Origin: Collimonas humicola
GTDB taxonomy: Bacteria > Pseudomonadota > Gammaproteobacteria > Burkholderiales > Burkholderiaceae_D
Direction: 5' to 3'
NCBI RefSeq assembly: GCF_018304945.1
Contig: NZ_JAGQEE010000004.1
Coordinates: 248,001 to 312,000, forward strand
Length of the DNA: 64,000 nucleotides
Shown in pieces: positions 39,178 to 47,998 of the stretch. How positions within the stretch are numbered: the first letter of the stretch is position 1; every line of letters starts with the position of its first letter. Both the position numbers and the translations under genes were made by a program. The notes under the pieces are model-generated. The model was not told the DNA's origin, searched no databases, and saw nothing but the letters and a program-made list of their open reading frames with translations.

Positions 39178-40368
39178 GTGAAAGTTCTATCTATCTTCGG
39201 AACACGCCCGGAGGCGGTAAAAATGGCTCCGGTGCTGCGGGTCCTGGCACGCGAGGCGGGCATCCAGTCGCTGGTGTGCGTCACCGGCCAGCACCGGCTC
39301 ATGCTGCAGCAGGTGCTGGACCTGTTCAGCATCAAGGTCGATCACAGTCTCGACGTCATGCTCCCGGACCAAACCCTGAATGGGCTGAGCGCGCGCCTGA
39401 TCGGCTTGCTCGACCCAGTGCTTGACGCTACCCGGCCGGACCGCATCCTGGTGCATGGCGACACCACCACCGCCATGATCGCCGCCCTCACCGCCTTCCA
39501 TCGGCGGATACCTGTCGCCCATGTCGAAGCCGGCCTGCGCACCGGCGACCTGACGCAACCTTGGCCGGAAGAAATGAACCGCCGCTACGTCGATGTGGTG
39601 AGCGACCTGCTGCTGGCGCCCACCGCCGGGGCCAAGGCCAGCCTGGCAGCGGAACACCTGGCCGGCCGGGTGGTCGTCACCGGCAACACGGTGATCGATG
39701 CGCTGCGCCTGAGCACCGAATCGATCGCCTTTGACCACAAGTTGCGCGAGCGTCTGGACGCCCACTTCCCTTACCTGCGCGCCGATAAAAAGCTGCTGCT
39801 GGTGACCGGCCACCGGCGCGAGAATTTCGGCCCCGGGTTCGCCGAAATTTGCGATGCGCTGGCGATATTGTCGCGCCGCTCCGATATACAGATCGTCTAT
39901 CCGGTGCACCTCAATCCGAACGTGCAGGGACCGGTGCAGGCGGCCTTGGCGCAGCTGCCGAATATCCACCTGATCGAACCGCTGGACTATCTGCTGTTTG
40001 TGCGGCTGATGCAACATGCGCACGTGATCCTGACCGACTCCGGCGGCGTACAGGAAGAGGCGCCGTCGCTCGGCAAGCCGGTGCTGGTGATGCGCAATGT
40101 CACGGAACGGCCGGAAGCGGTGGCCGCCGGCACCGTGCAGCTGGTCGGCACCGACGCGGCGCGCATCGTCGCCGCAGTGACCCAGCTTTACGAAGACGAC
40201 GCCACCTGGCAACTGGCGACGCAACGCGTCAATCCCTATGGCGACGGCCATGCGGCAGAGCGGATCGCGGCTGTGCTGTGCGGCAGGGAGATCGATGAGT
40301 TCGGCGTGGAAAAATTTGAACCACTGGGAAAAATACATCTGGTCGCGAAGAGCTTTCAAACAATATAG
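39178..40368 (+). CDS. wecB: UDP-N-acetylglucosamine 2-epimerase (non-hydrolysing), WecB type
   Basis: A 396-residue cytoplasmic enzyme interconverting UDP-GlcNAc and UDP-ManNAc. Motifs: FGTRPEAVKMAPV at the start, VTGQH, HGDTTTAM, HVEAGLRTGD, PWPEEMNRR, VTGNTVIDAL, GHRRENFG and SGGVQEEAPSLGKPV, all as in WecB/MnaA. I choose the GTG at 39178 because the family begins there (VKVLSIFGTRPE). An in-frame ATG at 39115 would add 21 residues. It leads the seven-gene polysaccharide operon and probably supplies its sugar nucleotide. No ManNAc dehydrogenase gene is nearby, so ManNAc rather than its uronate would be the product. Confidence 0.9.
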   Translation: MKVLSIFGTRPEAVKMAPVLRVLAREAGIQSLVCVTGQHRLMLQQVLDLFSIKVDHSLDVMLPDQTLNGLSARLIGLLDPVLDATRPDRILVHGDTTTAMIAALTAFHRRIPVAHVEAGLRTGDLTQPWPEEMNRRYVDVVSDLLLAPTAGAKASLAAEHLAGRVVVTGNTVIDALRLSTESIAFDHKLRERLDAHFPYLRADKKLLLVTGHRRENFGPGFAEICDALAILSRRSDIQIVYPVHLNPNVQGPVQAALAQLPNIHLIEPLDYLLFVRLMQHAHVILTDSGGVQEEAPSLGKPVLVMRNVTERPEAVAAGTVQLVGTDAARIVAAVTQLYEDDATWQLATQRVNPYGDGHAAERIAAVLCGREIDEFGVEKFEPLGKIHLVAKSFQTI

Positions 40369-40405
40369 GCACGCGGCTTGTGTTGCGGCGGAATCAGGGG
40401 GAAAT

Positions 40406-41884
40406 ATGGACAGCTGGCCCGATATTCCAGGCAAGGCAACGGCATGCCGGCGGCTGGCCGCGACCATGGCGCGCCGGCCTGTTTTCTTTCTCATTTCCAG
40501 CCTGATGGCGGCCGCCGGCAAGGCGCAGGCATCGTCTTTAGCATTCAGCGCCCGCACAGCAGAACTGGATCTGATGACGGCTATCCTGGCGGGGATAATA
40601 TGCTTGCTGGTGATCTACACGGTCCGCCATTATCTGTTCACGCTCGACCGCCTGTTCGGACGGCAGCGCCAGCCCTACCTGGATATCGAGCAGGCGTTGT
40701 GGCCCACAGTCGTGGTGTGCGTCGCCGCCCACAATGAAGAACGGGTGATCGCGGATGCATTGAACGCCCTGCTCGAAGTCGACTATCCGCGCGACAAGCT
40801 GGTCATCATGCCGGTCAACGACCGCTCCAGCGACGGCACCCGCGCCATCATCGACCGCATCGCCGCCGCCCATCCCGGCCGCTTCACCTTGTTCCACCGC
40901 GACAGCGGACGGCCCGGCAAGGCCGCTGCATTGCGCGACGCCACCGAGAGGATCCAGGCCGAAATCGTCATCGTCTTCGACGCCGACTATCTTCCCGCGC
41001 GCGGCCTGATCAAGCAACTGGTGGCACCGTTTTTCGATCCGGAAGTGGGCGCCATCATGGGCCGCGTAGTACCGATCAATGCCGGCGCCAACCTGCTCAC
41101 GCGCTTGCTCGACCTGGAGCGGGCCGGCGGTTACCAGGTCGACCAGGCGGCGCGCATGAACCTGGGGCTGGTGCCGCAGTACGGCGGCACCGTCGGCGGC
41201 GTCAGGCGCTGCGCGCTGGAGGAAATCGGCGGCTGGAACAGCGATATGCTGGCGGAAGACACCGACGTCACCTTCCGCCTGTTGCAGCATGGCTGGAAAA
41301 CGGTCTACCAGAACCGCTCGGAATGCTACGAAGAAGTGCCCGAAGCGTGGCCGGTCAGGATCCGGCAGATCAGCAGATGGTCGCGCGGCCACAACCAGGT
41401 CATGAGCCGCAACCTGATGCGCCTGCTGAAAAACCCGCGCATCAGCCGACGCGAAAGAGCCGACGGCGTCCTGCTGCTGTGCGTATTCGTCATGCCGCCC
41501 CTGCTGCTGATCGGCTGGGGCATCACCATCATCCAGTTTTTCATGACCTCGCACCAATGGCTGTTCGGCTGGCTGGCCCTGAGCGGCATCGTGGGCTACG
41601 GCGCCTTCGGCACCAACGCGGCCTTTTTTGAAATGGCCGCCGCCACTTACCTGGACGGCCACCGCAACCGCATACGCTTGCTGCCGCTCAGCATCTTCGG
41701 CTTCCTGGTCAGCCTGACGGCGATTTCCCGTGCGGCCATTGCCCAGTTACTGGATGCGCTATGCAAGCGTGAACTGGTATGGCATAAGACCGAACGATTC
41801 AGGATGGCGCCGGCAACCCCTGCCCAGGAGCTGATTCTGCCGCGCGATAGCGCGCTGCCCGGCTTGCCGGTCGAGGTTTCCTGA
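40406..41884 (+). CDS. Processive family-2 glycosyltransferase (polysaccharide synthase)
   Basis: A 492-residue membrane synthase. The N-terminal hydrophobic segments (residues ~24-38 and ~58-76) precede a GT-A domain with Asp139 (VNDRSSDGT), DAD (192-194), EDTD (284-287) and Q321xxRW325, the D,D,D,QxxRW set of cellulose, chitin, hyaluronan and PgaC synthases. At least three more membrane helices follow (from ~345). AGGGGGA at 40396-40402 fixes the ATG at 40406. No PilZ domain is visible. The polymer is probably built from the UDP-sugar made by the upstream epimerase, which is inference. The next gene starts three bases after the stop. Confidence 0.9.
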   Translation: MDSWPDIPGKATACRRLAATMARRPVFFLISSLMAAAGKAQASSLAFSARTAELDLMTAILAGIICLLVIYTVRHYLFTLDRLFGRQRQPYLDIEQALWPTVVVCVAAHNEERVIADALNALLEVDYPRDKLVIMPVNDRSSDGTRAIIDRIAAAHPGRFTLFHRDSGRPGKAAALRDATERIQAEIVIVFDADYLPARGLIKQLVAPFFDPEVGAIMGRVVPINAGANLLTRLLDLERAGGYQVDQAARMNLGLVPQYGGTVGGVRRCALEEIGGWNSDMLAEDTDVTFRLLQHGWKTVYQNRSECYEEVPEAWPVRIRQISRWSRGHNQVMSRNLMRLLKNPRISRRERADGVLLLCVFVMPPLLLIGWGITIIQFFMTSHQWLFGWLALSGIVGYGAFGTNAAFFEMAAATYLDGHRNRIRLLPLSIFGFLVSLTAISRAAIAQLLDALCKRELVWHKTERFRMAPATPAQELILPRDSALPGLPVEVS

Positions 41885-41886
41885 GC

Positions 41887-42951
41887 ATGGCTGCGCCAAT
41901 GCTGCTGATCAGCGTGCTGCTGATCATGTGCCTGCCGTTCATCCCGGCGCTGCGCGAATGGCTGCGCCCAAGCGACGTGGCGCCGCTGCCGGTCAGGCGC
42001 AACGAGATCAACAACCTGCGCTATTTCGCCGACAGTTTCCGGCACACCGTCGTCGGCATGCTGACCATCGATTTGCAGACACTGCAAAGCATCCAGACCG
42101 ACCGCACCGTCAGCATCAACGACAAGCTGCACGTCGTCCACCAGCGTCTGGACGACGATGCCGGCAACGGCTACCTGCCGGCGACCCTGAACGTGCTGCA
42201 GCAAAAGAACGGCATCGTCATCTTTCTGCACGACGCCCGGCTGCAGCCAGGCAGCCATAGCCAGGCCGACCTGTTTGCCGCCGCCGATCTGCTGGTGGGC
42301 GCAGGCGCCAGCCTGCGCGCCTGCTCGGCGCAGGGCCGCATTACGCTGGGCGCCGACACGGTCGTGCATCGCTGGATCGATGCGCCCTGCATCCAGGTCG
42401 GCAGCAACGCCGCCATCGACGGCCGCATTACCGCGCTCAGGGAAATCCGGTTTTCCGGCGGCAGCCGCTTTGTGCGCGCCGGCGCGCCAGCCATGCACTT
42501 CGGCGACGCCAGCGCTGCCGCCGCAGCGGCGCCGCAGGCGCCATCGCCGCGCATGCGCTACCTGCTGGATGACGGCGCACAGCAATCGGCCGCTCTCAGC
42601 CAGCATGGCGACTATGTGGTGCGCGGCGCCTACCGCATCCTTCCGGGCACCACCGTGTTCGGCAGCATCAAGGCCTATGGCGACCTGCATCTGGGAGAAC
42701 ACAGCTGCATTGCCGGCAGCCTGGTCAGCAATCAAGACATCGTGCTGGCCAGCGGCTGCGCCGTGCTGGGCCCGGTGATCAGCCAGAACGATATCGTGAT
42801 CGGCCCCGGTTGCCGCATCGGCACGCCCGAGGCGGCAACCACCGTAATCTGCCGCAAGCTGAGCATCGCCGCCGGCTGCGCGGTGCATGGCGTCATTACC
42901 ACGCATGACGGCGCCACGGTCGCGCTGGAGGAGAAATCGCATGCCAGCTGA
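41887..42951 (+). CDS. Membrane-anchored polymer-forming (bactofilin-like) protein
   Basis: A 354-residue protein. One N-terminal membrane helix (LLISVLLIMCLPFIPAL) is followed by an acidic/variable middle and two beta-solenoid-like stretches. The last (~240-345) reads YVVRGAYRILPGTTVFGSIKAYGDL...CIAGSLVSN...VLGPVISQND. That regular spacing of Gly and hydrophobic residues resembles polymer-forming cytoskeletal (bactofilin, DUF583) and hexapeptide folds. In a synthase operon it could organise or localise the secretion complex. It overlaps the following gene by 11 bases. The family call is by pattern only. Confidence 0.68.
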   Translation: MAAPMLLISVLLIMCLPFIPALREWLRPSDVAPLPVRRNEINNLRYFADSFRHTVVGMLTIDLQTLQSIQTDRTVSINDKLHVVHQRLDDDAGNGYLPATLNVLQQKNGIVIFLHDARLQPGSHSQADLFAAADLLVGAGASLRACSAQGRITLGADTVVHRWIDAPCIQVGSNAAIDGRITALREIRFSGGSRFVRAGAPAMHFGDASAAAAAAPQAPSPRMRYLLDDGAQQSAALSQHGDYVVRGAYRILPGTTVFGSIKAYGDLHLGEHSCIAGSLVSNQDIVLASGCAVLGPVISQNDIVIGPGCRIGTPEAATTVICRKLSIAAGCAVHGVITTHDGATVALEEKSHAS

Positions 42952-43966
42952 TCGACGCCGGACGCAATGGCGAGCCGTGCCTGCCCTCCGCGCAGCCGTC
43001 TTTTTCTTTTGCTGCGCCTGCCGCCCAGCGGCGGCCGACGACTTGCCGGCGGCCCAGGCGTTCGCCGATTTCGCCGAGCCGAACGGCGCCCTCACGGTCT
43101 TTCCCAAAGGCGACTATGTCGAGCCCTACTTCGCGCTCAAGGCCTTGCTGGCGGCGCATCGGCTGGGCGTCGACATCGCTCCGGCGGCCAGTGCCTTCGG
43201 CCACTGGCTGCTGCCCTTCCAGCAGGCCGACGGCCCCTTCCCGCGCATCTGCCGCAGCAGCGCGGCGGAGTGGCTGGCCTGCGGCCCGGCGGATGCCGAC
43301 GACTCCCTGGATGCGCTATGGTGCCTGCTGGCCGCCGAGGTCCTGCCGGCCGATGAAGTGCTGGCCGCCAGTTGCGCCAGGTCCCTGGAACACCTGGCAA
43401 CCCTGTGGAATCCGGCGCAGCAGACATTCCACGCCGCCGCCGGCAGCGCGGCCTATTTCGCCGACAACGTCGAAGTCATCGGCGCCCTGCGCCATCTGCG
43501 CGGCAGCAGTGCGGCAAGCACACGCTTCGCCGTCCAGCTGGCGGCGCTGCCGAGCAGCGCCAGCATGCTTAAAGGCTTGCGCCTCACTTACGGCTACGAT
43601 CCGGACGGCGCCCTTGAACCGGCGCGCGCCAGCATGCCGCCGACACCATACGGCTTCTATCCGAATGCGGTGGCGCCCGTCTATCTGTGGCTATACGACC
43701 TGCGCGGCGGCGCCAGCGGCGTGCGTTACTGGCGCCTGTGGATGGAACGCTATGGCGCGCAATGGCTGGCCGGTGCAAGCGATCACTATCCCTGGGGACT
43801 GATCGCCTGGGCCGCCTATCGCAACGGCGACCAGGCCAGCGCGCGGCGATGGCTTGACAATGCCGCCGCCTGGCGCGCGGCGGGCCGCTGGAACATCGTC
43901 GAAGAAGGCGTGCGCATCGGCTTGCGCAACACTTTCAAAAACCGGACTCCACAGCCGTCATCATGA
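42941..43966 (+). CDS. Exported protein, possible (alpha/alpha)6 glycosidase-like, polysaccharide operon
   Basis: A 341-residue protein not securely recognised. An N-terminal hydrophobic export signal (ALRAAVFFFCCACRPAAA) precedes a helical, Trp/Tyr-rich body with repeated helix-turn patterns: DYVEPYFALKALLAAHRLG, DADDSLDALWCLLA, then FYPNAVAPVYLWLYDLRGG and SDHYPWGLIAWAAYRNGD. This looks like a six-hairpin toroid such as GH8 or other polysaccharide hydrolases/lyases often found in synthase operons. Acidic catalytic residues cannot be assigned; DADD near residue 109 is a candidate. GGAGGAG at 42927-42933 fixes the start inside the upstream gene, and the end overlaps the next gene by four bases. 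Confidence 0.6.
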   Translation: MPADRRRTQWRAVPALRAAVFFFCCACRPAAADDLPAAQAFADFAEPNGALTVFPKGDYVEPYFALKALLAAHRLGVDIAPAASAFGHWLLPFQQADGPFPRICRSSAAEWLACGPADADDSLDALWCLLAAEVLPADEVLAASCARSLEHLATLWNPAQQTFHAAAGSAAYFADNVEVIGALRHLRGSSAASTRFAVQLAALPSSASMLKGLRLTYGYDPDGALEPARASMPPTPYGFYPNAVAPVYLWLYDLRGGASGVRYWRLWMERYGAQWLAGASDHYPWGLIAWAAYRNGDQASARRWLDNAAAWRAAGRWNIVEEGVRIGLRNTFKNRTPQPSS

Positions 43967-45816
43967 GCGCCCTACGCCACCCACATCTGCGCAAGATCCT
44001 GCTGGCGCTGGCGCTTGCCGTCATCATCGGCGGCGGCGCCGGCTGGGTCTACCGCATCAACCAGATCAGCCCGGCGCAATGGCAAAGCGACGCCATCGTC
44101 CTGGTCTTGCCGGACGAACTGTCCGACGCCAACCGCTTGTATTCCAACGCATGGCTGGACGGCGCGGCGGAAGAAGGGATCCGCCTGCAGACCATTACCG
44201 CCTCTGAATTTTCACGGCGCGGACTGCAAGGCGAACGGCCGTTCGCCGGCGTGATCCTGCCGGACACCATCCATCGCCAGATCAGCACCGCTTTCGTCAA
44301 CCAGATCAGCCGCTTTGTGGAAAACGGCGGCGCCCTGATGCTGGTGGGCGATGCCGGCGTGCTGGACGAGAACGGCTACTACAGCGAACCGGCGTCGCGC
44401 TTTTCAAAGCTGGCAGGAACCGAATACGCCATGTACGGTGCGCTGCATGACAAAATATCGTTCAACCCGACCATCTCCGGCAGTCCGCAGATCATGCAGG
44501 CGCTGGAAATTCCGCCGGGACGCTGGATCAAAAACGGCGAGCTGGCGGTATTGTCCGGCTACGGCGAGGACACCTTGCGTTATCCGGCCCTGCGTACCGC
44601 CGCCACCTATGCCGGCACCCTGCGCATGCAAGCCGAGGGCGATACCGTGATTGCAGGCGAACATGATGTCGGCCAGGGCCGCGTGCTGTTCGTCAACCTG
44701 CCGCTGGGATACCTGAAGCTGCGTACCGACGGCATCCTGATGCATGGCTTCCTGCACTACTTCGCCAACCGCATCATGGGCCAGCCGCAATTGTCCGCCG
44801 CGCCGGACGCGATCGGCGGACTGATCCTGAACTGGCATTGCGACGCCAAGATCTGCATTCCCGCCATGGACCAGCTGATCAAGGCCGGCGTATTCAGGCG
44901 CGGGCCGTTCAGCATCCATGTCACCGCCGGGCCTGACCAGCGCACCTTCGGCGACGGCCTCGGCGTCGACCTCAACCATAACCCGGCGTTTCAGGCGCGC
45001 TTGCAAACCTTGCTGGCCCAAGGCAATGAAATCGGCAGCCACGGCGGCTGGATACATGACTGGTTCGGCAAGAACCTGGCTGCCGGCAATGCCGAAAAAA
45101 TGACCACTTACCTGGAACAGAATGCCGATGCGGTGAACCAGCTGATCGGCCGCCCGCAGACCGAATACTCGGCGCCGACCGGCAACCAGCCGGTCTGGGT
45201 CACCGACTGGTTGGACGACCAGGATGTGCTGGCCTACTACTTCACCGGCAATATCGGGCAGGGCCCGACCCATGCTTACCGCGACGGCCGCCGCGACAAG
45301 CATATCTGGTCGTTCCCGGTGCAGACCTATGGCCATATCAGCACCATCGAAGAAGCCTATATGGAGCATGTACCGGAAAGCGAAATCAGCAACTGGCTGA
45401 CGTCGCTGGTGCAGTTTACCGAGGATACCGGACAGATCAGGCTGATTTATTTCCACCCGCCGGGCGCGGTGCTGTATCCCGACGCCATCAACCGGCTGAT
45501 GCTGGCCGCTGACGCAGCCGGAAAGAGCGGCCGTTTCCGCTGGCGCACCATGACCGACCTGGCGCGCTTCATGAACCGCAGGGAGCAGACGGCATGGAAT
45601 ATTTCCGGCGACCGGCATGCAGTCGTGGTCGATGCGGCCAATGCCGTTTCATTGCAGCAGCAAAGCTGGCTGTTCCCGGTTGCGCTGTATGCAAAGCCGC
45701 GCATCCTGGCCGGCAATGCTAGAGTGGAGCAACGCGGCGAAAACTGGACCGTGATCGCCGGCGACAGCAAGCAACTTCGCATTTCAACACCGTTGATAAA
45801 GGAAGCACTGCATTGA
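43963..45816 (+). CDS. Two-domain polysaccharide-deacetylase-like protein
   Basis: A 617-residue protein with an N-terminal signal anchor (~10-28). The first domain (~42-270) has VENGGALMLVGDAG and looks like a class-I glutamine-amidotransferase-like fold. The C-terminal domain (~285-545) resembles NodB/CE4 deacetylases: GLILNWHCDAK (Asp294) in place of the usual TFDDG, and GSHGGWIHDWF (His360, His365) where the family has H-x3-H. The His spacing is one residue longer than normal, so activity is uncertain. It could de-N-acetylate the exopolysaccharide in the periplasm. Start and end overlap neighbours (ATGA; TTGA). Confidence 0.7.
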   Translation: MSALRHPHLRKILLALALAVIIGGGAGWVYRINQISPAQWQSDAIVLVLPDELSDANRLYSNAWLDGAAEEGIRLQTITASEFSRRGLQGERPFAGVILPDTIHRQISTAFVNQISRFVENGGALMLVGDAGVLDENGYYSEPASRFSKLAGTEYAMYGALHDKISFNPTISGSPQIMQALEIPPGRWIKNGELAVLSGYGEDTLRYPALRTAATYAGTLRMQAEGDTVIAGEHDVGQGRVLFVNLPLGYLKLRTDGILMHGFLHYFANRIMGQPQLSAAPDAIGGLILNWHCDAKICIPAMDQLIKAGVFRRGPFSIHVTAGPDQRTFGDGLGVDLNHNPAFQARLQTLLAQGNEIGSHGGWIHDWFGKNLAAGNAEKMTTYLEQNADAVNQLIGRPQTEYSAPTGNQPVWVTDWLDDQDVLAYYFTGNIGQGPTHAYRDGRRDKHIWSFPVQTYGHISTIEEAYMEHVPESEISNWLTSLVQFTEDTGQIRLIYFHPPGAVLYPDAINRLMLAADAAGKSGRFRWRTMTDLARFMNRREQTAWNISGDRHAVVVDAANAVSLQQQSWLFPVALYAKPRILAGNARVEQRGENWTVIAGDSKQLRISTPLIKEALH

Positions 45817-46865
45817 AAACAGCACTGGCAACTCTGGGCCTGTCCTTCGGCTGCGTCGCATTTCCTGCTTGTGCATCGGCTGACGACAGCACCGACATAC
45901 AGGTTCCCGTATTACAGCACGCGCGCTTGATGCCGCTGATGAACACGCCGCCCGCAGCGGTCGCCGCTGTGCAGCCGCACGCAGCAGCTGCGCCGGCCGC
46001 ATCAATGGCGCCGGCATTGTCGCCGGCCTCGGCCCATGCTGTGCCCGCCGCAACCGATTCGGCGCCCGTGCCGCTGGCGCTGGCAGCCCCGGTGGATGCA
46101 GCCCCGGTTGCAGTCGCGCCGCCCGAAAGCACAGCTGCCGCGGCGCCGGAACTGAGCCCCGAGCTAGGCGCTCTCGAATTGATCGGCGGTGACGGCCACA
46201 TGACCAATGGCTATGGTCATGCGCGTCTGACGTCGCTGCGCGGCATGGCGGTGACCTCCCTGGGCGTGGTGCAAGGCGAATTGACGCAGCAGTCTCGTTT
46301 CGGCTATACCGGCAACTATGGCAGCGTCTCGCTGACCCACGACTTTTCACCGGATTACTACAGCACCGTCAGCGTCGGCGCTGGCAACAGTCCGCTGTTT
46401 TCCAGCTGGCGCGGCGATGCCACCGCTTATCGCAAGTTCGGCAGCGAGCGCCAGTACGTCGCCGGCATCGGCGCCTACTACGCCAAGGGCAATGAAAGCG
46501 CGCGTTCCGATACAGGCTTGCTGTTGACCGGCATCGCTTACCTGACCGGGGTGGTGATGGAAGGCGGCGTGCGCCTGAACTGGGCCGATCCGGGTTCGAT
46601 ACTGGGCCCCAGCGAATACATCGCCGCAACCTTCGGCAATGACGACCGGCGCGCCGTCATCGTCCGCTATGAGCATGCCAAGGAAACCTACAAGGTGCTG
46701 CCGGGCGGGCCGGAACTGGTGAACTTCAAGAGCAATACCGTCAATCTGCAATGGCGCGAACGGATCAACCGCGTCAGCATGTTGCTGGCGGGGCTGGAGT
46801 ACTACCAGAGCCCGCTCTACGACCGGCTCTCCTTCAATCTCGGCTGGCGCTGGAGTTTCAGATGA
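45813..46865 (+). CDS. YaiO-family outer-membrane beta-barrel protein
   Basis: A 350-residue exported protein starting at TTG (45813), supported by AAAGGAAG at 45798-45805 and by overlap with the upstream stop. A signal peptide (to ~24) and an Ala/Pro-rich linker (~45-115) precede a barrel of ~230 residues with aromatic-ended strands, finishing LSFNLGWRWSFR. The barrel matches YaiO; in E. coli yaiO sits with a family-2 glycosyltransferase (yaiP) and a deacetylase (yaiS). A role as export pore for the polymer is likely but unproven. Overlaps the next gene by four bases. Confidence 0.8.
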   Translation: MKTALATLGLSFGCVAFPACASADDSTDIQVPVLQHARLMPLMNTPPAAVAAVQPHAAAAPAASMAPALSPASAHAVPAATDSAPVPLALAAPVDAAPVAVAPPESTAAAAPELSPELGALELIGGDGHMTNGYGHARLTSLRGMAVTSLGVVQGELTQQSRFGYTGNYGSVSLTHDFSPDYYSTVSVGAGNSPLFSSWRGDATAYRKFGSERQYVAGIGAYYAKGNESARSDTGLLLTGIAYLTGVVMEGGVRLNWADPGSILGPSEYIAATFGNDDRRAVIVRYEHAKETYKVLPGGPELVNFKSNTVNLQWRERINRVSMLLAGLEYYQSPLYDRLSFNLGWRWSFR

Positions 46866-47662
46866 AAGCACGGCGGGAAGATGGCGGCGGCAAGCAGGCA
46901 GCGGTCAACCCGCGCTTCACCGGCTTTGGCGGCCAGCTGATACAAACCCATCGCGCCCTGCGGCGGCTGGCTTTTCCGCACCGCCGCTGGATCGATATCT
47001 TGCTGCTGCCGGCGCTGATCTTCTCTTGCACGCTGCTGGCCTGGCCTTTGATTGCCGAGCTGTGGGCCGCGATTATCGGATTCTGGGCCAATGGCCTGGG
47101 CGACGAGATGGCGCTCAGAATGGGCCGCAGCGCTTTTCCGGGCATCCGTTCGATCCCCTACGCCTATGTCGAAGCGGCGCTGCCGGATCCTTTGCAATGG
47201 TGGAGCGGCATGCTGATCAGCATCACGCTGCTGCTGACCACCACGTTGCTGCCGGCCCGCATGCTGCCGATATCCTATGCCCTGCGCGTGATCGGCCTGG
47301 TGCAGCTGGCCAGCCAGCTGTATTTTTACTTCTGGGCGGCGGAATTCCCTTATCAGTCGGCCTCCTCCGTCTCGGCGCTGATGCAAGCGTCCATGGTGCT
47401 GATCCTGCTGACGCCCTGGATCTATGGCCTGCTGTACAACATTTTCGACTTCGGGGTTTATCGCAAAATCCTGCTGTCTGTGCTGGCCGTGCTTTACCTG
47501 ATCGGGCTGACGCCATTCCAATACACCTTTGCCGCCTGGCTGATGCTGCGCTACTCGCTGCTGTGGCATCCCCTCATCTACCTGCTGGGCTCCAGCCTGA
47601 TCCAGTTCGGCGCCTTGGTCGGCTTCTATTCCTGGGCCATGAGCTGGCAGCGGCGCGAATAG
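46862..47662 (+). CDS. Multi-pass inner-membrane protein, last gene of the polysaccharide operon
   Basis: A 266-residue protein with a basic cytoplasmic N-terminus and about six hydrophobic segments (roughly residues 48-72, 110-130, 140-165, 175-195, 205-225, 235-258). I recognise no family. The ATG at 46862 overlaps the preceding stop (ATGA), so it belongs to the operon. Possible roles are a synthase partner subunit (as PgaD is to PgaC) or an acyl/sugar-modifying membrane protein. No catalytic motif stands out. No clear terminator follows within the 70-base gap. Confidence 0.7.
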   Translation: MKARREDGGGKQAAVNPRFTGFGGQLIQTHRALRRLAFPHRRWIDILLLPALIFSCTLLAWPLIAELWAAIIGFWANGLGDEMALRMGRSAFPGIRSIPYAYVEAALPDPLQWWSGMLISITLLLTTTLLPARMLPISYALRVIGLVQLASQLYFYFWAAEFPYQSASSVSALMQASMVLILLTPWIYGLLYNIFDFGVYRKILLSVLAVLYLIGLTPFQYTFAAWLMLRYSLLWHPLIYLLGSSLIQFGALVGFYSWAMSWQRRE

Positions 47663-47731: not shown

Positions 47732-47998
47732 GTGAAAAAGACCGGCATGGCAAAGAGCGACGCCAAGAAACTCATGGGCAAAATGACCGCGCCCGGCGCT
47801 GGCGGATTCGGCAACAGCGACGTCGTCGTGGTCGACCGCAAGGAGCAGCGCAAGCGCGATCAGGCGCTGGGCCTGGTGCCGTTCGCGGTCAAGCTCAACG
47901 GCACGCTGGTGCAGCAGCTGCAGACATTGGCGAAAGAGCGCGAACTCGATCTCAACCAGCTGGTGGCCGAGCTGCTGGCGAAAGGCCTGGCTGACTAG
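47732..47998 (+). CDS. Small protein, possible ribbon-helix-helix-like
   Basis: An 88-residue, Lys-rich protein without a signal or membrane helix. The C-terminal half, VPFAVKLNGTLVQQLQTLAKERELDLNQLVAELLAKGL, has the beta-strand then two-helix layout of small RHH DNA-binding or toxin-control proteins. The N-terminal 30 residues are basic and probably disordered. A GTG start at 47732 follows GAAGGA; the ATG at 47747 is an alternative. It stands alone, ending at a terminator. The RHH idea is inference from pattern only. Confidence 0.6.
   Translation: MKKTGMAKSDAKKLMGKMTAPGAGGFGNSDVVVVDRKEQRKRDQALGLVPFAVKLNGTLVQQLQTLAKERELDLNQLVAELLAKGLAD

Follow-up and report, generated by a model that had tools for sequence, protein, structure and literature searches.

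A probable system for exopolysaccharide production in Collimonas humicola

Seven adjacent genes of Collimonas humicola (contig NZ_JAGQEE010000004.1, positions 248,001 to 312,000; this stretch of 64,000 nucleotides is called the window below) appear, from their sequences, to encode a synthase-dependent exopolysaccharide system that is distinct from Pga, Bcs, Pel and Nfr by its defining parts. In our preferred interpretation, to which we give a probability of roughly 0.6, they form an exopolysaccharide machine that most likely produces a polymer of beta-linked N-acetylmannosamine (ManNAc), with a scaffold, chain trimming and export through a YaiO barrel. The fixed core of the system consists of a synthase of glycosyltransferase family 2 (GT2), a bactofilin-like protein, a YaiO-family protein and a multi-pass membrane protein. 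To our knowledge, the number of characterised machines of this kind in Gram-negative bacteria is small. We found no description of this operon in the open-access literature that we searched. Its genes are, with positions in the window:

39178-40368, + strand: WecB-type non-hydrolysing epimerase (2-epimerase of uridine diphosphate (UDP)-N-acetylglucosamine (GlcNAc); TIGR00236, PF02350)
40406-41884, + strand: GT2 polysaccharide synthase (PF13641/PF13632; motifs D, DxD, ED and QxxRW plus hydrophobic segments)
41887-42951, + strand: bactofilin-like beta-helix protein, inner-membrane-anchored, probably cytoplasmic (PF04519 across the family)
42941-43966, + strand: exported glycosidase-like protein (fold predicted as an (alpha/alpha)6 toroid)
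43963-45816, + strand: membrane-anchored two-domain deacetylase-like protein (similar to PF08532 in its N-terminal part and to polysaccharide deacetylases in its C-terminal part)
45813-46865, + strand: YaiO-family outer-membrane beta-barrel (TIGR04390, PF19413)
46862-47662, + strand: multi-pass membrane protein whose family has no Pfam model (conserved co-occurrence)

A sequence-only reading of the window had described seven same-strand genes at 39178-47662 with overlaps of 11, 4, 4 and 4 bases at the last four junctions, and our coordinates agree; the gap between the GT2 and bactofilin-like genes, given there as 3 bases, is 2 bases (41885-41886). Epimerase and GT2 genes are separated by 37 bases with the chosen start, and the open frame extends further upstream. 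Promoter-like sites (3, compared to 1.9 +/- 1.4 in shuffled sequences) and terminator-like sites (8, compared to 8.1 +/- 3.0) are at the shuffle level and uninformative. The gene set is more than a chance arrangement because it is conserved in relatives.

Conservation of the gene set

Species genomes were scanned with the synthase as seed, and from at least 520 relatives we took the best 80 by synthase similarity. We kept the 57 loci whose flanks extend at least 6 kb on the upstream and 7.5 kb on the downstream side of the synthase. The profile of each family combined the sequence from the window with those of at most ten relatives, and open frames were called crudely with the longest start. 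All 57 loci contain the bactofilin-like, YaiO and multi-pass proteins. The epimerase is present in 54, the glycosidase-like protein in 43 (two of these, L068 and L071, have only a distant paralogue with 47 and 56 bits), the deacetylase-like protein in 38 and the complete set of seven in 25. The four core genes lie on one strand in 57/57 loci, the gene right after the synthase is the bactofilin-like one in 56/57, and the epimerase is encoded on the opposite strand in 5/54. Across all 80 loci, we detected the bactofilin-like protein in 79, the multi-pass protein in 76, YaiO in 74, the epimerase in 69, the glycosidase-like protein in 55 and the deacetylase-like protein in 43.

As these loci had been picked by synthase similarity, the multi-pass protein was used as a second seed. 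It was found in 4 of the 397 genomes of a phylum sample, each time with the synthase set alongside, and in 30 of the 392 genomes of a family sample. These 30 stretches contain YaiO in 30 cases (in L220 about 9 kb from the multi-pass gene and on the other strand), the synthase and the bactofilin-like protein in 28 each, the epimerase in 27, the glycosidase-like protein in 25 and the deacetylase-like protein in 21. The two cases that lack both synthase and bactofilin-like protein lie on short contigs (7.8 and 3.3 kb). The same seed has a match in 11/15 genomes of the genus. In distant relatives from the same family and order, members of all seven families are present in a reshuffled order, with approximately 22-60% identity.

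Co-occurrence of the families in other genomes, whose absence would have refuted a joint unit, is thus conserved from both the GT2 and the multi-pass seed. The conserved gene set supports the earlier proposal of a complete make-modify-export unit, in which a polysaccharide would be produced. What is fixed among the seven families is the four-gene core; the glycosidase-like and deacetylase-like proteins are frequent members that some loci lack.

A small gene at 47732-47998, just 3' of the operon, is kept in four relatives of the same genus. It was not found in the distant operons and, for this reason, is probably not part of the system.

The synthase and its likely substrate

The GT2 of the window matches PF13641 with 107.5 bits, and its motifs D, DxD, ED and QxxRW are invariant in alignment A2 (8 sequences). 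When comparing five reference synthases (PssC of Listeria, PgaC, BcsA, YaiP and NfrB), we found PssC to be the nearest. Two family GT2 profiles score PssC with 181 and 187 bits, compared to 123 and 132 for PgaC, 66 and 74 for BcsA and 46 and 52 for YaiP; NfrB has no match to the family GT2 profile. Furthermore, all 12 family GT2s compared score 126-172 bits against PssC, for which PgaC reaches 122. The PssC comparison gave 30.7% identity over 427 columns, with a saturated accompanying tree. In a tree of 47 rows whose reference branches are saturated and whose bootstrap has not settled, 43 family synthases group together, apart from PgaC, YaiP, BcsA and NfrB (fork 87/94, stem 3.1).

The Listeria locus, which we equated with pssA-E by gene order and products, gives this kinship its meaning. 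According to a review, the product of pssA-E is poly-beta-(1,4)-ManNAc with terminal galactose (PMC5039582); a primary paper describes PssC as the predicted polymerising GT2 and reports that its deletion abolishes Congo red binding (PMC4125290).

The epimerase matches TIGR00236 with 436 bits (cut-off 210) and PF02350 with 374 bits, and Lys15 is present within the stretch FGTRPEAVKMAP. Of the five operon-bearing genomes of the genus tested, four (G000, which is this genome, G117, G130 and G028) have no TIGR00236 match besides the operon wecB. In the fifth genome, G143, the operon wecB is a remnant that aligns at both ends only, and two other epimerases are present; the gene for one of these immediately precedes an nfrB-nfrA pair. 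This pattern follows the rule that the Nfr authors reported for their system: wecB adjoins nfrB unless the genome has another wecB, and the use of UDP-ManNAc is argued genetically (PMC8669469; PMC8669472). No second glycosyltransferase or sugar-nucleotide gene was recognised by eye in the eight open reading frame (ORF) clusters common to at least 5 of the 57 loci. The linked epimerase, the kinship with PssC and the lack of another sugar gene in the common ORF clusters all favour UDP-ManNAc as the most likely substrate.

Two other products have to be considered. It is unlikely that the polymer is based on GlcNAc or another hexosamine (similar to poly-N-acetylglucosamine or chitin), with the epimerase feeding something else or a minor sugar. 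Such a polymer would fit the best NCBIfam match of the GT2, which is PgaC/IcaA, although its 130.5 bits fall far short of the cut-off (422 bits; the CelA model gives 75.9 bits, cut-off 699), and PssC itself is reported as about 30% identical to IcaA and HmsR (PMC4125290). However, the epimerase accompanies 54/57 loci, the GT2s are nearer to PssC than to PgaC, and none of the seven proteins significantly matches PgaA, PgaB or PgaD. A heteropolymer of ManNAc and another sugar, added by the same GT2 or by enzymes encoded elsewhere, we consider improbable. The galactose on the Listeria product, as given in the review (PMC5039582), and one GT26 (PF03808) gene elsewhere in the genome are in line with it, whereas the common ORF clusters offer no second glycosyltransferase recognisable by eye.

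The bactofilin-like protein

The bactofilin-like protein of the window scores 23.7 bits with PF04519, below the Pfam cut-off of 27.9; a relative in G033 reaches 30.3 bits and a protein on an Escherichia fergusonii plasmid 31.0 bits. Within the family, PF04519 matches 33/36 members at E<=0.01. An N-terminal hydrophobic segment is found in all 36, and the lysines and arginines around it are more numerous after the segment in 29 members and before it in 5, with a tie in 2.

Alternatively, the beta-helix protein could be an enzyme or an acyltransferase-like protein of the left-handed beta-helix (LbH) type rather than a bactofilin scaffold, which we regard as doubtful. LbH models match 6/36 members and ice-binding models 5/36, in a profile search of the PDB a hexapeptide transferase comes first (E 0.0066) and a bactofilin third (E 0.021), and E. 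coli yaiX, annotated as an acyl-/acetyltransferase, occupies a comparable place. This has to be set against the widespread PF04519 match and a profile comparison in which bactofilins of the same genomes are nearer (E 0.0009, probability 23%) than LpxA/YaiX (0.012, 3.5%), both being weak.

Periplasmic proteins, outer-membrane barrel and multi-pass protein

No Pfam family matches the glycosidase-like protein of the window, and an MGH1-like glycoside hydrolase model matches 4/29 members of its family. Its predicted fold is an (alpha/alpha)6 toroid, which agrees with the earlier assignment as an exported glycosidase-like protein. In the deacetylase-like protein of the window, PF01522 stays below the Pfam cut-off; in the family it is found in 17/22 members at E<=0.01, PF08532 in 7/22 and DUF2334 in 1/22. 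Residues H292, H360, H365 and H498 are invariant in alignment A8.

We also observed longer deacetylase-like paralogues of 685-827 aa with an insertion between the two domains (L037 8109-10592, L038, L039, L040, L044 9489-11546 and L043 3285-5555). The one in L043 is divergent from the operon; in five stretches, some of them short contigs, no other operon family was found near these paralogues.

The YaiO barrel matches TIGR04390 with 167 bits (cut-off 32) and PF19413 with 58.6 bits, and has no TPR or NfrA_C match. Indeed, none of the seven proteins has a PilZ or TPR match in Pfam, as the sequence-only reading had pointed out. The multi-pass protein of the window has no Pfam match either, nor does any of its 42 family members at E<=0.01. 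Its AlphaFold2 model has a predicted local distance difference test score of 90.5 and no clear match in the PDB. The family was not seen outside the operon in the genome searches made.

As export is a role that we infer for the YaiO protein, the product might instead be a cell-envelope glycolipid or a wall modification. We find this very improbable, since the processive GT2 motifs, the exported glycosidase-like fold and the outer-membrane barrel fit a secreted polysaccharide.

Comparison with known systems

The earlier claim that the layout is unlike the named systems is supported, as the defining parts of Pga, Bcs and Pel were not found in the operon. The nearest characterised relatives, which that reading had not named, are systems for ManNAc polymers: Listeria Pss by its synthase and E. 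coli Nfr by its logic.

The Pss operon has the synthase nearest to ours among the five references, and it includes a DUF2334 protein. It differs in its Gram-positive host, its BcsB-like PssD and its diguanylate-cyclase-type PssE, and the five Listeria Pss proteins have no match to the epimerase, bactofilin-like, YaiO, glycosidase-like or multi-pass profiles. The NfrB-NfrA-WecB system of E. coli (N4 glycan receptor, NGR) likewise combines a GT2, an outer-membrane barrel and WecB. However, NfrB of Collimonas has an MshEN domain, of which we found no match in the GT2 of the window, and NfrA has TPRs; neither protein is matched by the GT2 or YaiO profile of the operon. The wecB-nfrB-nfrA locus of G143 lies at L143 7284-12880, with no other operon family within the surrounding 17 kb. 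Among 12 genomes, a full-length match to the G143 NfrB was found only in G143 and G061, and G061 has no match to the multi-pass protein of the operon.

In the E. coli yaiS-yaiP-yaiX-yaiO cluster, a GT2, an LbH-type protein and YaiO adjoin, and E. coli YaiO belongs to TIGR04390. The sequence-only reading had placed yaiO next to a GT2 and a deacetylase gene; yaiP and the putative deacetylase gene yaiS do adjoin it, with yaiX in between. Yet YaiP is a more distant synthase, YaiX scores E 0.45 and no epimerase is annotated alongside. In E. coli K-12, an IS2 copy interrupts yaiX, the gene that separates yaiP from yaiO (L125 4845-6873); strain SCU-105 has an intact yaiX, and its annotation marks the PIG-L deacetylase gene as incomplete.

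The Pga and Bcs systems of E. coli also comprise a GT2 synthase, one or more periplasmic enzymes and an outer-membrane pore. The operon differs from both by a TPR-free pore, its own epimerase and the bactofilin-like protein; beyond the comparison with Pga above, the six non-GT2 proteins have no significant match to BcsB, BcsC or BcsZ. Pel depends on the GT4 synthase PelF as polymerase, whereas the operon encodes a GT2 as its sole protein of polymerase type (this comparison concerns the operon alone, as the genome was not searched for pel). Two features distinguish the operon from the known systems compared: a bactofilin-like protein as a constant partner, and the membrane protein that is its hallmark.

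Distribution, plasmid version and neighbouring genes

Loci were found in Collimonas, Ralstonia, Cupriavidus, Duganella, Undibacterium, Polaromonas, Sphaerotilus, Thiomonas, Chromobacterium and Burkholderia, as well as in Methylococcaceae, Acidobacteriota, Gemmatimonadota, Candidatus Eisenbacteria and Rhodothermales; many of them, especially those from outside the pseudomonads, are metagenome bins. A version of the operon resides on a conjugative IncI plasmid of E. fergusonii (L233 3581-10206). With the same profiles, we detected genes for the bactofilin-like protein, WecB, YaiO (a weak match of 26 bits), the multi-pass protein, an acyltransferase, the glycosidase-like protein and the GT2, and no deacetylase match. 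A stretch similar to the bactofilin-wecB part of the plasmid is present on the chromosome of 2 out of 5,426 E. coli genomes; one of these copies (L235 8169-15080) has, by annotation alone, the same gene order as the plasmid, including the acyltransferase.

A protein with a GGDEF motif, often with EAL, is encoded within 9 kb of the synthase in 12/57 loci, in 8 of these 12 on the opposite strand (e.g. L076 1256-3769 and L079 7122-9563). These proteins were found by motif in one ORF cluster, and a link to cyclic di-GMP is possible.

A proposed mechanism

Under our preferred interpretation of a ManNAc polymer, WecB would convert UDP-GlcNAc to UDP-ManNAc, which the GT2 would polymerise, most likely to poly-beta-ManNAc, and the chain would be extruded through the membrane channel of the GT2 itself. 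In the inner membrane, the synthase would have two constant partners, the multi-pass protein and the bactofilin-like protein with its membrane tether; the latter would probably form a scaffold on the cytoplasmic side by which the synthase is clustered or positioned. Chains may be trimmed or cleared in the periplasm by the (alpha/alpha)6 protein, as cellulose chains are by the periplasmic glycosidase BcsZ, and may lose some of their acetyl groups to the deacetylase-like protein; acylation would be optional. The polymer would exit via the YaiO barrel.

Several observations weigh against this interpretation. The conservation counts are limited to the best 80 relatives ranked by synthase similarity, and the trees cannot place PssC relative to the family synthases because the reference branches are saturated. 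All 11 genomes whose examined locus is without wecB carry the gene elsewhere, a weak count because 8 of these 11 loci are incomplete and wecB is common (above the cut-off in 10/14 control genomes). Furthermore, the GT26 gene mentioned above could use UDP-ManNAc. As for deacetylation, all 22 deacetylase-like members have HxxxxH where a protein of carbohydrate esterase family 4 (CE4) in this genome has HxxxH, D294 is absent from 2/22 (present in 20/22), and a profile comparison with CE4 is not significant. Lastly, the bactofilin-like protein of the E. fergusonii plasmid (165 aa, as annotated) is without an N-terminal hydrophobic helix, and membrane tethering of these proteins is thus not universal.

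The operon ties a bactofilin-like protein to polysaccharide synthesis. The gene set recurs in Pseudomonadota, Acidobacteriota, Gemmatimonadota, Candidatus Eiseniibacteriota and Rhodothermota. We tentatively suggest, as a bolder idea that is possible rather than probable, that it represents a phylum-crossing system for the secretion of a mannosamine polymer, in which a bactofilin polymer, usually membrane-tethered, positions the synthase and the new multi-pass family is the hallmark. If true, this would be a cytoskeleton-guided extrusion of exopolysaccharide, one version of which is carried on a conjugative plasmid. If the product is poly-ManNAc, the operon would provide a second dedicated Gram-negative route beside Nfr and a direct test of a bactofilin role in the assembly of envelope polymers, and the polymer may be a phage receptor and a biofilm component.

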